Shown piece after piece: positions 7,657-32,135 of a DNA stretch of 46,591 nt. This DNA is from an uncultured Clostridia bacterium. Its GTDB lineage: Bacteria; Bacillota; Clostridia; Oscillospirales; Acutalibacteraceae. The translations under genes were made by a program, and so were the position numbers. The notes beneath the pieces are model-generated. The model saw nothing but the letters and a program-made list of their open reading frames with translations, searched no databases and was not told the DNA's origin. Location of the stretch: NCBI GenBank assembly GCA_945983355.1, contig CAMFSU010000009.1, forward strand, positions 1-46,591, read 5' to 3'. Each line of letters begins with the position of its first letter. The first letter of the stretch is position 1.

Positions 7657-7800
7657 TTGCGTGTCGGAATGTGCGAATGGGCGGGTCCTGTGCGACGGGA
7701 TGCTACGAACCATGTCAGGCGGGGAACCGAGCAGCATTAAGTAGATTTTTCTGTGCGCCGCAGTCAATCGGTTCATTCGTACATTCGGATGCGCAAGTTT
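7657..7800 (+). ncRNA. ffs: Signal recognition particle RNA (4.5S-like)
   Basis: The apical SRP domain is recognisable at 7707-7740: GAACCATGTCAGG, an internal loop with GGGGAACC, and GAGCAGCATTAAG, matching the conserved Ffh-binding helix 8 symmetric/asymmetric loops of bacterial SRP RNA. Flanking arms pair over a long helix (7657-7679 with 7774-7796 share TTGCG/CGCAA, GAATGT/ACATTC and CGAATG/CATTCG), and a T-run follows at 7798-7803. The position immediately upstream of dnaX-ybaB-recR is the same as in Bacillus subtilis. The 340-base gap between the Nudix gene and dnaX is filled by this RNA and its promoter. The exact ends are estimated. Confidence 0.88.
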
Positions 7801-24254: not shown

Positions 24255-24329
24255 GCGGGTGTAGTTCAACGGCTAGAATCCCAGCCTTCCAAGCTGGTTG
24301 TGTGGGTTCGATTCCCATCACCCGCTCCA
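24255..24329 (+). tRNA. tRNA-Gly (anticodon TCC)
   Basis: 75 nt with encoded CCA (24327-24329). Acceptor GCGGGTG pairs with CACCCGC; anticodon stem CCAGC/GCTGG encloses CTTCCAA, giving TCC; T-loop TTCGATT. Followed after two bases by a strong terminator. Confidence 0.97.
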
Positions 24330-24331
24330 CG

Positions 24332-24371
24332 AAAAAAGTCACTTTTGTCTACCGACAAAGGTGACTTTTTT
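24332..24371 (+). terminator. tRNA-Gly terminator, left part of repeated unit
   Basis: 18-bp stem with one wobble (24332-24349 with 24354-24371), TACC loop, T6 end. Identical to the tRNA-Arg terminator at 31549-31588. Confidence 0.92.
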
Positions 24372-24548
24372 CAATGATATCCGTTCCTGGCAGAACGGAT
24401 GATATAGCTGATGCTATGATATCTGCTGTGCAGATGATATATGCCTGCGGCATATGAAGGAACGGATATTATATCATATTTGCAACGCAAATATATCATG
24501 CGGCGCAAGCCGTATATCATATTGCGCAAGCGATATATCATTGAAAAA
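24367..24548 (+). repeat. Hairpin-array element, copy A
   Basis: 182 bp bounded by a perfect 14-nt inverted repeat (TTTTTCAATGATAT at 24367-24380; ATATCATTGAAAAA at 24535-24548). The left half carries ATGATAT at 24374, 24399, 24416 and 24434; the right half carries the inverse ATATCAT at 24471, 24493, 24514 and 24535. Between them lie short palindromes with 3-6-nt loops, for example ATCTGC-TGT-GCAGAT and ATTTGC-AAC-GCAAAT. A longer pairing, ATATCCGTTCC (24377-24387) with GGAACGGATAT (24459-24469), encloses the left half. No coding capacity. About 75-80% similar to copy B by eye. Confidence 0.88.
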
Positions 24549-24569
24549 CATAACAAATTATGATATAAT
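24541..24569 (+). promoter_or_regulatory. Promoter at right end of element A
   Basis: TTGAAA (24541-24546) lies inside the right terminal inverted repeat; 17-bp spacer; TATAAT (24564-24569). It would start transcription about 15 bases before the ribosome site of the four-helix-bundle gene. Confidence 0.8.
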
Positions 24570-24591
24570 TCCAAAGAAAGTAGGTGCTTTT

Positions 24592-24945
24592 ATGTCCGAA
24601 AACAAATTACTTGATTTATCTTTTGAATTTGCAGTTGCTATTGTTAATCTTGTGGATGATGTAACTGCGCCGAAAAGTTCCTATATGACTGATCAACTTG
24701 CAAGATCAGGTACATCAGTAGGTGCCAATATTCACGAAGCGCAGTATGCACAGAGCAAAAAGGACTTTGTCGCCAAGTTAGAAATTGCCTTGAAGGAATC
24801 CAACGAAACAAGCTACTGGTTAAAGCTGATGTATCAAACCAAGAGAATAGATACAGCTACATATCAATATACCGAGAAACTTTGCGGCAATATCCGTAGG
24901 TTGCTGATTGCATCTTGCAAGACTGCAAAGGAGAGTTCGAAATGA
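24592..24945 (+). CDS. Four-helix-bundle protein (23S rRNA intervening-sequence/S23 family)
   Basis: 117 aa. LLDLSFEFAVAIVNL, then QLARSGTSVGANIHEAQYAQSK and KLEIALKESNETSYWLKLM, is the signature of the small four-helix-bundle family first described from ORFs within 23S rRNA intervening sequences; related to the Avd accessory protein of diversity-generating retroelements. No reverse transcriptase or variable-repeat region is present here. Start at ATG 24592, behind GTAGG and the element-borne promoter; the frame runs back into the repeat without support. Stop overlaps the next gene (ATGA). The molecular role is uncertain, probably nucleic-acid binding. Confidence 0.85.
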   Translation: MSENKLLDLSFEFAVAIVNLVDDVTAPKSSYMTDQLARSGTSVGANIHEAQYAQSKKDFVAKLEIALKESNETSYWLKLMYQTKRIDTATYQYTEKLCGNIRRLLIASCKTAKESSK

Positions 24946-25448
24946 AAATAGCGGAAATCTGTACTTTGTTGAAGCGAGAACTCTATGAAAACAACTATCA
25001 ATACGGGTTTTATTTTGGTGGGATAAAGTACATGCCTGATTTTAAGAATGGGTTTGATGAAGAATTTTTCAAGCTATCTAAAACTGTCTATCGTATTCAA
25101 AATCCGCAAGATACGATGAAAGAAAAAATTGGGACCTGCATTGATGCAGTGATAGTAATGAAAATTATTTTAGATGAAATAAATGTCCCAAGTAAAATTT
25201 GGCTACTTTATCATAATCTGAAAAAGACTCCACATACGATTCTTACCTTTGAAGCAGAAGAAAAACTTGTCTATCTTGAACTTACTCCACAATCAAACAA
25301 ACCTTGGTACGGCAAAGAAATTGTTTATAGTAACGAGCAAAGTTTGATTGAACAATTTCAAAAAGAGAATTATGCCATCGTTGAGATAACCGACAAAATA
25401 ATAATTGGCAACTCTCCCGATTCGATATTACAGTACATAGTTCCATAG
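24942..25448 (+). CDS. Transglutaminase-like fold protein, uncharacterised
   Basis: 168 aa, AAAGGAG ribosome site, ATG overlapping the previous stop. The central segment has the order expected of a transglutaminase-like catalytic core: Cys66 in GTCIDAV at the start of a helix, His98 in PHTILTF on a strand, and Glu113 in YLELTP where most members have Asp. The N-terminal 55 residues are polar. This could be a small cysteine protease or amidase-like protein, or an inactive relative. No signal peptide. It forms a two-gene cassette with the four-helix-bundle gene, bounded by the element and a weak terminator. Confidence 0.55.
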   Translation: MKIAEICTLLKRELYENNYQYGFYFGGIKYMPDFKNGFDEEFFKLSKTVYRIQNPQDTMKEKIGTCIDAVIVMKIILDEINVPSKIWLLYHNLKKTPHTILTFEAEEKLVYLELTPQSNKPWYGKEIVYSNEQSLIEQFQKENYAIVEITDKIIIGNSPDSILQYIVP

Positions 25449-25474
25449 AACACAAACCGAGAACACATTACTTT

Positions 25475-25503
25475 GCACCTTTAGGTGCGACTTCTCTTTT
25501 TTT
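25475..25503 (+). terminator. Weak terminator after the cassette
   Basis: GCACCT-TT-AGGTGC (25475-25488), effective 5-bp stem, then GACTTCTC and seven T. Confidence 0.55.
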
Positions 25504-25508
25504 ATATA

Positions 25509-25522
25509 GATGGGAATCGAAC
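25509..25522 (-). repeat. Inverted 14-nt copy of the tRNA-Gly T-arm
   Basis: The minus strand reads GTTCGATTCCCATC, identical to tRNA-Gly positions 24306-24319 (T-stem/loop). No other tRNA parts are adjacent, so it is a fragment rather than a gene. Confidence 0.6.
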
Positions 25523-31469: not shown

Positions 31470-31546
31470 CTGCCCGTGGCGCAACTGGATAACGCAACAG
31501 ATTCCGATTCTGGAGATTGGGGGTTCAAATCCCTTCGGGCAGGCCA
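31470..31546 (+). tRNA. tRNA-Arg (anticodon CCG)
   Basis: 77 nt with CCA encoded (31544-31546). Acceptor CTGCCCG pairs with CGGGCAG, G discriminator; anticodon loop TTCCGAT gives CCG; T-arm GGGGG-TTCAAAT-CCCTT. The anticodon stem has one A-G mismatch at its outer pair. No clear promoter; it may be read from galE or from weak AT-rich sequence upstream. Confidence 0.94.
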
Positions 31547-31548
31547 CG

Positions 31549-31588
31549 AAAAAAGTCACTTTTGTCTACCGACAAAGGTGACTTTTTT
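31549..31588 (+). terminator. tRNA-Arg terminator, left part of repeated unit
   Basis: Same 18-bp stem, TACC loop and T6 as after tRNA-Gly; the identity of the two loci runs 61 nt from the CCA (31544-31604). Confidence 0.92.
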
Positions 31589-31761
31589 CAATGATATCCG
31601 TTCCCTACGGTCACGGATGATATAGCTAACGCTATGATATCTGCTTTGCAGATGATATACGCTTCGCGCATAAAGGAACGGATATTATATCATGCTTGCG
31701 GAGCAAGTATATCATACGGCAAGCCGTATATCATATCGCGCCAGCTATATATCATTGAAAA
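31585..31761 (+). repeat. Hairpin-array element, copy B
   Basis: 177 bp with perfect 13-nt terminal inverted repeats (31585-31597; 31749-31761). Same module order as copy A. Several stems differ, and some of the changes keep pairing: ATTTGC/GCAAAT in A is GCTTGC/GCAAGT in B. The long pairing ATATCCGTTCC (31594-31604) with GGAACGGATAT (31675-31685) is conserved. Non-coding. Confidence 0.88.
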
Positions 31762-31783
31762 GCGCAATAAATTGTGGTATGAT
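31755..31783 (+). promoter_or_regulatory. Promoter at right end of element B
   Basis: TTGAAA (31755-31760) in the right inverted repeat, 17-bp spacer, TATGAT (31778-31783). Same geometry as copy A; the spacer differs from A almost only by transitions. Confidence 0.75.
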
Positions 31784-31808
31784 GCTAACGAAAAAAGGAG
31801 AATGCAAA

Positions 31809-32135
31809 ATGATAGGTCAGATTGTTACTGTAACTGTTGACAGACCACTTGGCAGTTGTCATCCCGATTATCCTAACACTTATTATCCAATAAATTATGG
31901 TTATATTAAAGGCACAATGGCGGCTGATGGGGAGGAGCAGGACGCCTATGTTTTAGGGGTTAGTGAGCCGATTTCAAAATTCAAAGGTAAAGTAATTGCG
32001 GTCATAAAGCGTGAGGATGATATCGAGCAAAAATTGGTGGTAGTACCTGACGGTGTCAGCTTTACAAAAAAGGAAATTGAAAATCTGACATATTTTCAAG
32101 AGAAATATTTCACCTCTAAAATCGTTTTGCTTTAG
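31809..32135 (+). CDS. Short inorganic-pyrophosphatase-like protein
   Basis: 108 aa, AGGAG ribosome site, ATG 31809. TVTVDRPLGSCHPDYPNTYYPINYGYI, DGEEQDAYVLG and KREDDIEQKLVVV align with the core of family I soluble pyrophosphatases, including the YPINYGY strand. The second acidic cluster is D-G-E-E-Q-D rather than D-x-D-P-x-D, and the protein is far shorter than the ~175-aa enzyme. It may therefore be a divergent or non-canonical phosphohydrolase. Transcribed from the promoter at the end of hairpin element B. Confidence 0.75.
   Translation: MIGQIVTVTVDRPLGSCHPDYPNTYYPINYGYIKGTMAADGEEQDAYVLGVSEPISKFKGKVIAVIKREDDIEQKLVVVPDGVSFTKKEIENLTYFQEKYFTSKIVLL

Follow-up and report, generated by a model that had tools for sequence, protein, structure and literature searches.

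Gene cassettes behind tRNA genes of gut bacteria, apparently an undescribed kind of small mobile element

A 1140-bp cassette located directly behind a tRNA-Gly gene was analysed in a stretch of 46,591 nucleotides from an uncultured Clostridia bacterium of the Acutalibacteraceae (contig CAMFSU010000009.1; the whole stretch is called the window), together with related loci from other genomes. Cassettes of this type, found behind tRNA genes in gut bacteria, apparently represent an undescribed kind of small mobile gene cassette. Judged by comparison between genomes, they are mobile and modular units at tRNA 3' ends: insertion occurs at the CCA side, an empty site exists, one orthologous site carries different cassettes, related cargo genes are shared, a short repeated word is linked to the clade of a four-helix-bundle protein (IVP), and pairing within the hairpins is conserved. 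A search of the open-access literature (most subscription papers fall outside it) gave nothing linking IVP genes, word arrays and tRNAs. The parts of the cassette in the window (copy A) and its surroundings are as follows.

24255..24329, + strand: tRNA-Gly (TCC), identified with ARAGORN; its CCA end is the left insertion point according to the empty-site comparison
24330..25469, + strand: complete insert (cassette) of 1140 bp, reaching from the CCA of the tRNA as far as the native terminator that it displaced, delimited by comparison with the empty site in congener G051
24331..24372, + strand: terminator-like hairpin of copy A itself (arms 24331-24349 and 24354-24372, 95% complementary)
24367..24548, + strand: hairpin array, 182 bp, with four ATGATAT and then four ATATCAT words
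24372..24465, + strand: Gut-1-like left half of the array (RF01706), 46.1 bits, below the cut-off
24541..24569, + strand: promoter-like TTGAAA-17-TATAAT, the -35 beginning at the end of the last inverted word
24592..24945, + strand: IVP (four-helix-bundle) gene, 117 aa; PF05635 at 85 bits, TIGR02436 at 94.3 bits
24927..24945, + strand: AAAGGAG, resembling a ribosome-binding site, in the 3' end of the IVP gene, and the ATGA stop/start overlap
24942..25448, + strand: cargo gene, 168 aa, with a weak transglutaminase-like match (DUF553, below the cut-off)
25470..25503, + strand: displaced native terminator of tRNA-Gly, from the alignment with G051
25509..25522, + strand: inverted copy of the tRNA-Gly T-arm (GATGGGAATCGAAC)

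The left end of the cassette starts with CGAAAAAAG, and the right border was set by alignment, with an uncertainty of some bases. The only Pfam match of the IVP in the window was PF05635, the family of the 23S rRNA intervening-sequence protein, a four-helix bundle. A preliminary description of this DNA had reported an array behind tRNA-Gly with a terminator in between, composed as a 182-bp element with perfect 14-nt terminal inverted repeats and four plus four inverted words, and ending in a TTGAAA exactly 17 bp from a TATAAT; all of these elements were recovered. The terminal repeats lie at 24367-24380 and 24535-24548, the left one overlapping the T-tract of the terminator; the ATGATAT words start at 24374, 24399, 24416 and 24434 and the inverted words at 24471, 24493, 24514 and 24535; the promoter elements occupy 24541-24546 and 24564-24569. 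That the array exceeds chance is supported by 28 occurrences of ATGATAT on both strands of the window compared to 6.2 expected (maximum of 12 in 100 shuffles) and by folding-energy z-scores of −6.8 for copy A and −5.5 for the second copy, copy B (0 of 200 shuffles equally low for each). The loop of the copy A terminator-like hairpin (TTTTGTCTACC) was found again in other copies. Of the proposed union of terminator, array and promoter, the association of array and promoter was supported by counts (see below), and the terminator was seen to precede the array in the copies that were read by eye. The window also holds a bacterial small SRP RNA at 7679-7777.

Insertion was assessed at the tRNA-Gly locus of three congeners (G051, G001 and G026), in which the orthologous kinase gene (85–88% protein identity) and tRNA-Gly gene are present. 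G051 has an empty site, with the native terminator right behind tRNA-Gly, followed by the inverted T-arm, and with neither array nor IVP in the 825 nt examined behind the tRNA. G001 carries an insert of 1110 bp at the same position, of which the array, the IVP and the cargo all differ from those in the window; this cassette and the 1140-bp cassette of the window genome (G000) are unrelated. Upon joining of the flanks, 141 of 161 alignment columns matched the empty site for G001 and 129 of 173 for the window, and the tRNA is kept intact by the insertion behind its 3' end. Both junctions in G001 read CA followed at the breakpoint by AAAAAGAAGT, a 10-nt direct repeat, which leaves the border ambiguous by as much as 10 bp unless it represents a short target duplication; comparison of the window junctions with the empty site gave no direct repeat of this kind. 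The mobility suggested in the preliminary description thus agrees with what was found: further copies beyond the two in the window occur in the same genome and in congeners, and orthologous sites are empty or differently filled, the empty site being one between species rather than strains.

Inspection by eye showed no duplicated tRNA 3' end ahead of the native terminator in either G000 or G001, but such duplicates do occur in neighbouring units, in which the reverse complement of a tRNA's own T-arm lies behind that tRNA (by eye). In several of these units a hairpin body containing CAGTCCGG.GGACTG comes next, together with a second copy of the tRNA 3' end. These T-arm units were noted at 25509-25522 in the window and at L013, L014, L015, L078, L083, L096, L115, L123, L140, L164, L183, L188 and L260. 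The own inverted 13-nt T-arm (at most one mismatch) was present behind 14 of 166 tRNAs, compared to 6 hits in 830 trials with foreign T-arms. In G026, a relative of the window IVP, broken into two pieces and without an array, lies near tRNA-Gly (C105, 8644-8945) and adjoins a duplicated tRNA 3' end.

The second copy in the window lies behind tRNA-Arg with its own promoter-like TTGAAA-17-TATGAT, as the preliminary description had it, and consists of the following parts.

31470..31546, + strand: tRNA-Arg (CCG), site of copy B
31548..31589, + strand: terminator-like hairpin, identical in sequence to that of copy A
31589..31757, + strand: hairpin array of copy B
31755..31783, + strand: promoter-like TTGAAA-17-TATGAT (-35 at 31755-31760, -10 at 31778-31783)
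31794..31811, + strand: junction AAAGGAGAATGCAAAATG, resembling the 3' tails of IVP genes elsewhere; copy B is without an IVP
31809..32135, + strand: cargo gene, 108 aa, a partial inorganic-pyrophosphatase-like protein

The start of the copy B cargo is preceded by AAAGGAGAATGCAAA, similar to the 3' tail of IVP genes elsewhere, and loss of an IVP gene would be the simplest reading of this copy. For tRNA-Arg(CCG), seven congeners were searched for the upstream gene, which six of them have, and together with the window this gave seven sites: four with complete arrays of different word types, one with a truncated array and two without an array (by eye). The genes behind the complete arrays differ as well, coding for the pyrophosphatase-like protein and (by eye) for an HTH protein, a lipoprotein-like protein and an IVP. 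An IVP that is 94% identical to the one in the window was found behind tRNA-Arg(CCG) with a different cargo. A third copy in the window genome is located on contig C61, with no tRNA within the 6 kb of sequence examined around it, and at L094 a TGATGT cassette follows an apparent 5S rRNA with a terminator instead of lying directly behind a tRNA.

The extent of the mobile unit differs from what had been described. Related cassettes at different tRNAs (L119 versus L121, L146 and L143) share 82–88% DNA identity from the tRNA end to the IVP stop only; the matches end at +348 to +357, the IVP genes being 342–354 nt long. Since this homology continues to the IVP stop, a stand-alone insulator of 240 bp was ruled out. 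The unit of about 240 bp in the preliminary description is in fact one of about 1.14 kb (24330-25469) that runs through the next gene, and what had been taken for an insulator-promoter cassette forms the leader of this gene cassette, whose IVP gene had been missed. Pairs without a tRNA link can match further (L112/L137 up to +726). In the first of two samples of IVP genes (defined below), the next ORF overlapped the IVP stop as ATGA, GTGA or TTGA for 15 of 43 tRNA-linked IVPs and 2 of 48 others; in the second sample the numbers were 14 of 45 and 6 of 27, and therefore the contrast in overlap between tRNA-linked and other IVPs is not firm. Related cargo was encountered across word classes, with protein identities of 86% (L140/L184), 79% (L141/L150b) and 56% (window/L188 and L112/L187), and for L115/L189 the cargo shows 90.8% DNA identity that begins just before the IVP stop. 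Ten cargos, taken from 28 cargo proteins, were assigned to families: GNAT (three), NUDIX, methyltransferase, nucleotidyltransferase, SMI1, ASCH, DUF218 and AAA_18 (below cut-off). A motif like the tRNA 3' end was seen by eye behind several cargos and not all; the right ends vary. Known phage or plasmid elements were discarded as an identity, as 24327-24592 of the window gave no match in phage or plasmid collections, and so were known defence systems, for which PADLOC yielded no matches with the IVP and two window cargos.

The linkage to tRNAs was determined in two samples. Sixty-one congeneric genomes were searched with the array DNA and for IVP genes, which gave array matches in 25 of the 61 (up to 16 per genome, some of these to the terminator only) and IVP genes in 48 of the 61 (0–7 each). 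The first IVP sample comprises 90 loci from these genomes and the window, with 92 IVP genes in total; the remaining IVP places entered no count. The second comprises the best 80 loci from an IVP-profile scan of 84,980 species genomes, mostly from gut Clostridia and their relatives, of which 79 were used (all but L203, which is truncated by the contig start); L199, L201 and L229 had already been fetched, and L229 is also part of the first IVP sample. In the first sample 43 of the 86 IVPs with at least 300 nt of upstream sequence were tRNA-linked, 41 of them following a tRNA on the same strand at a distance of no more than 450 bp and 2 following a tRNA 3' fragment, involving 24 isoacceptors. The second sample gave 48 of 75 IVPs with enough upstream sequence (45 of 72 minus the three repeats) and 23 isoacceptors, and the controls were 0 of 28 for kinase genes and 2 of 85 for other ORFs. 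Not close behind a tRNA were 43 of 86 IVPs in the first sample and 27 of 72 in the second.

Word arrays were likewise enriched upstream of IVP genes. At least three copies of one word were present for 67 of 75 IVPs of the second sample (64 of 72 minus the repeats) and in 49 of 852 control stretches of these loci; at least five words were found for 51 of 79 compared to 11 of 852 controls. In the first sample, 34 of 86 regions upstream of IVPs and 10 of 492 control stretches had a detector score of at least 2, obtained with a 6-mer detector that overlooks arrays with variable words. Of the 61 genomes, 28 contain three-word patterns of ATGATAT, 11 of ATGATGT and 16 of ATGAAAT, a few of the matches looking like chance coding matches, and no reversed three-word patterns were obtained apart from two matches in one genome for ATGAAAT. 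Hairpin arrays are one of several types of word array, which the preliminary description had missed; by eye, the words at the array position of other IVP clades are longer and lack short hairpins. A second ATGATAT subfamily, apart from the window subtype, has GATGATATGCAATTCC hairpins (G021, G009, G025, G034, G036 and others). In a further word class, which is not tRNA-linked, IVPs between protein genes are flanked on both sides by words of the AATTCGGAATT/AATGCGTAATT type (L093, L095, L097, L098, L103, L108, L110, L131 and L134).

The words were then placed on trees of the IVPs (118–119 columns, many forks open), each IVP carrying as its label the word most common upstream of it. For the first sample, 16 changes were required, with a minimum of 14 and 62.2 for shuffled labels (0 of 200 as low); here the list of words had been compiled after inspection of these very loci and 12 labels were assigned by eye, automatic labels also giving 16 changes, and the distant IVP of L092 was dropped and 6 unlabelled IVPs were uncounted. 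The second sample, to which a script assigned labels from the list of the first, needed 3 changes, the least possible, compared to 32.7 for shuffled labels; this tree omits L242, L258 and L268 (short frames) and leaves 10 unlabelled rows uncounted. Without the three repeats the values were 3 changes, a minimum of 3 and 30.7 shuffled (0 of 200 as low). The TGATAT class, to which the relatives of the window IVP belong, forms one starred clade in the second tree. On that same tree tRNA identity required 35 changes, close to the 37.0 for shuffled labels (23 of 200 as low), or 33 compared to 34.4 without the repeats (43 of 200 as low). A word that tracks the IVP, while the tRNA does not, is what a mobile element that brings along its recognition sequence would produce, although array and IVP are adjacent and inheritance as a block would likewise tie word to clade. 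Each IVP is likely to bind its own word. Among solved relatives of the IVP, two have five chains per entry, and the title of a reference cited in the available text of PMC10053308 mentions five four-helix bundles; a pentamer of IVP on a multi-word array is plausible.

The data are best explained, and with a probability that is better than even, by an integron-like mobile cassette behind the tRNA CCA, with IVPs that each recognise a word of their own and a recombinase that comes from elsewhere. The cassette was inserted between the CCA of tRNA-Gly and that gene's own terminator, and its own terminator would end the tRNA transcript anew. Next comes the array, a 7-nt word between hairpins that is forward in the left half and inverted in the right, and a promoter whose -35 starts at the array end; the last codons of the IVP gene carry a putative ribosome-binding site for one small cargo gene that starts within the IVP stop codon (ATGA). 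Each IVP would bind its own word, and the array, folded or double-stranded, would not be a free RNA but the DNA site for insertion, and perhaps for promoter control. A recombinase that the cell supplies in trans would exchange the strands, using the tRNA 3' end much like attI in the case of integron cassettes; this role of the array with a recombinase in trans is the more speculative part, and the arrays found without a cognate IVP (see below) speak against it. No recombinase linked to the cassettes was found; reverse transcriptase (RT) and integron integrase were looked for in the 61 genomes, and neither fits.

Alternatively, the array could be an operator through which the IVP represses its own promoter, the apparent mobility being due to homologous recombination between similar tRNA and terminator sequences. 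The match between word and IVP clade would fit an operator, and so would the position of the promoter: allowing at most 2 mismatches, a promoter was found at 52 of 103 array-linked IVPs in five word classes (8 of 515 shuffled regions), nearly always with a spacing of 17 bp, and in 24 of the 52 the -35 starts −4 to +3 bases from the last word (one locus is counted twice in these pooled counts). We nevertheless consider this unlikely, given that IVP-carrying cassettes sit behind 24 and 23 isoacceptors in the two samples and that arrays occur without an IVP. In G033 an IVP lies beside 1 of 9 places with arrays of the window subtype (by our count), and in G057, with its four array places, a search of the genome gave no PF05635 match. 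For the preferred reading, too, the evidence on IVPs acting in trans is mixed: counted by hand over the fetched IVPs, genomes with arrays away from an IVP contained a cognate IVP in 4 of 6 cases for the window subtype (3 of 6 if a broken copy is disregarded), in 5 of 9 for TGATGT, and in only 4 of 14 for TGAAAT (p = 0.19); a TGATGT match in G035 was left out as a chance coding match, and a match on C17 of G001 looks alike. These counts and G057 give no support to the presence of a cognate IVP in every array-bearing genome.

It is rather improbable that the array is a structured RNA of the Gut-1 type, that is, a non-coding or leader RNA made by read-through or from an unseen promoter. The preliminary description knew of no named family with this architecture; the left half of the array in fact has the hairpin layout of Gut-1 with its repeated separator, and copy A scores 46.1 bits (E 3e-8) with the covariance model, just under the cut-off of 50. 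The cut-off was passed by three sister copies from 14 hand-picked sources (L045, 58.1; L068, 55.4; L001, 51.5 bits), the gathering score was reached by 13 of 16 hand-picked array loci, often by arrays of the TGAAAT type, and five of these 13 lie between a tRNA and an IVP (L113, L152, L175, L187 and L249). Rfam lists Gut-1 as an sRNA, and the available text of Weinberg et al. 2010 (PMC2864571), the sole match for RF01706 in the open-access literature searched, reports it from human gut samples and rates it as certainly RNA. The stems also covary. In 17 aligned arrays of the window subtype, a part of all those found, the words are near-invariant and the hairpins variable; a 42-pair hairpin consensus was paired in 97.6% of the cells and had 47 double-change cells compared to 16.6 in shuffled alignments (0 of 500 as high) and at most 8 in slid versions, figures that are inflated by related sequences and by the derivation of the consensus from the same alignment. 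Single stem mismatches on the IVP strand lean towards G.T over A.C (29 versus 14, p = 0.03, one locus being counted twice), a hint that the IVP strand folds, as RNA or as single-stranded DNA. Two right-half hairpins have exchanged positions between L079 and L077, and hairpins may thus move as modules. Against a free RNA, the array in the window has a terminator in front of it and an outgoing promoter behind it, a promoter that is widespread among such arrays; the array halves are mirror images, as expected of a DNA site; and in other IVP clades the same place is taken by arrays that lack short hairpins. Flanked in this way by terminator and promoter, the array may function as DNA, and Gut-1 is doubtful as an RNA here. 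Gut-1 also spans only half of the element, and its original description is that of an independent RNA, whereas the array here belongs to a cassette that also comprises terminator, promoter, IVP and cargo.

An ordinary MITE-like repeat that lies near IVP genes by chance is very improbable. Correia and BOX elements are similar in their terminal inverted repeats and outgoing promoter, and a 10-nt direct repeat flanks the insert in G001; the insert in the window is without one, and the enrichment of arrays before IVPs in both samples argues against chance. Hardly tenable is the absence of mobility, with old cassettes whose words drifted in place alongside the IVP: both compared tRNA loci are occupied in several species and some word classes are alike (TGATAT, TGATGT, TGAAAT, TGAAGT), but the empty site, the almost random distribution of tRNAs on the IVP tree and the related cargo across IVP classes already disfavour it.

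An integron-like cassette with an IVP that recognises its own word, the preferred reading, resembles several known systems in part, and it gives a context to the orphan Rfam family Gut-1 and to the common protein family PF05635. REP/BIME palindromes with RAYT proteins are comparable in that a protein clade has its own palindromic word and copies without the protein exist. RAYT is a Y1 transposase-like nuclease; the IVP matched PF05635 alone and gave no Y1 transposase-like match, and we know of no catalytic activity in the IVP family. If the IVP reads its word, the dozen or so natural variants would constitute a new protein-DNA code. The intervening sequences of 23S rRNA share the IVP/S23p family and terminal inverted repeats in a stable-RNA gene, and the available text of PMC4990558 describes heptameric direct repeats before the ORF of one of them. 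Those elements lie inside 23S rRNA and are excised by RNase III, whereas both copies in the window are behind tRNA genes and not within 23S rRNA, with the ORF outside the hairpins; the functionality and origin of the intervening sequences are said in the same text to remain unclear (PMC4990558). PF05635 also resembles Avd of diversity-generating retroelements, according to the available text of PMC10053308. An RT-driven element was rejected: an RT match was present in only 16 of the 61 genomes, among them G000 (E 2e-10), and none was found in the array- or IVP-rich G033, G052, G009 and G018, nor was an RT domain found in any of the five genes around the window IVP.

The integron was ruled out as such by the integrase TIGR02249, which was above the cut-off in 0 of 61 genomes; matches below the cut-off were obtained in 60 of the 61 and in all 14 control genomes. 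In G000 the tyrosine recombinase matches comprise five stretches, some of which belong to one gene. The cassettes are nonetheless like integron cassettes in their single small cargo genes, exchange at a fixed border, one fixed target side and a putatively folded site, and they differ in targeting a tRNA 3' end and in often including an IVP gene. Different cassettes occupy one site and cargo is shared, yet the cassettes have their own promoter, unlike the promoterless cassettes of integrons. If they move in the way proposed, they would provide a tRNA-based route of gene shuffling in gut Clostridia without integrons. A bolder reading, rather less likely than not, is a further natural gene-cassette system besides integrons, located behind the CCA of many tRNAs, in which each class would be defined by a four-helix-bundle protein and its word in folded DNA, the promoter and ribosome-binding site would express any small gene placed at the stop codon, Gut-1 would be such a site, and the 23S rRNA IVPs and Avd would be cousins of the accessory factor.
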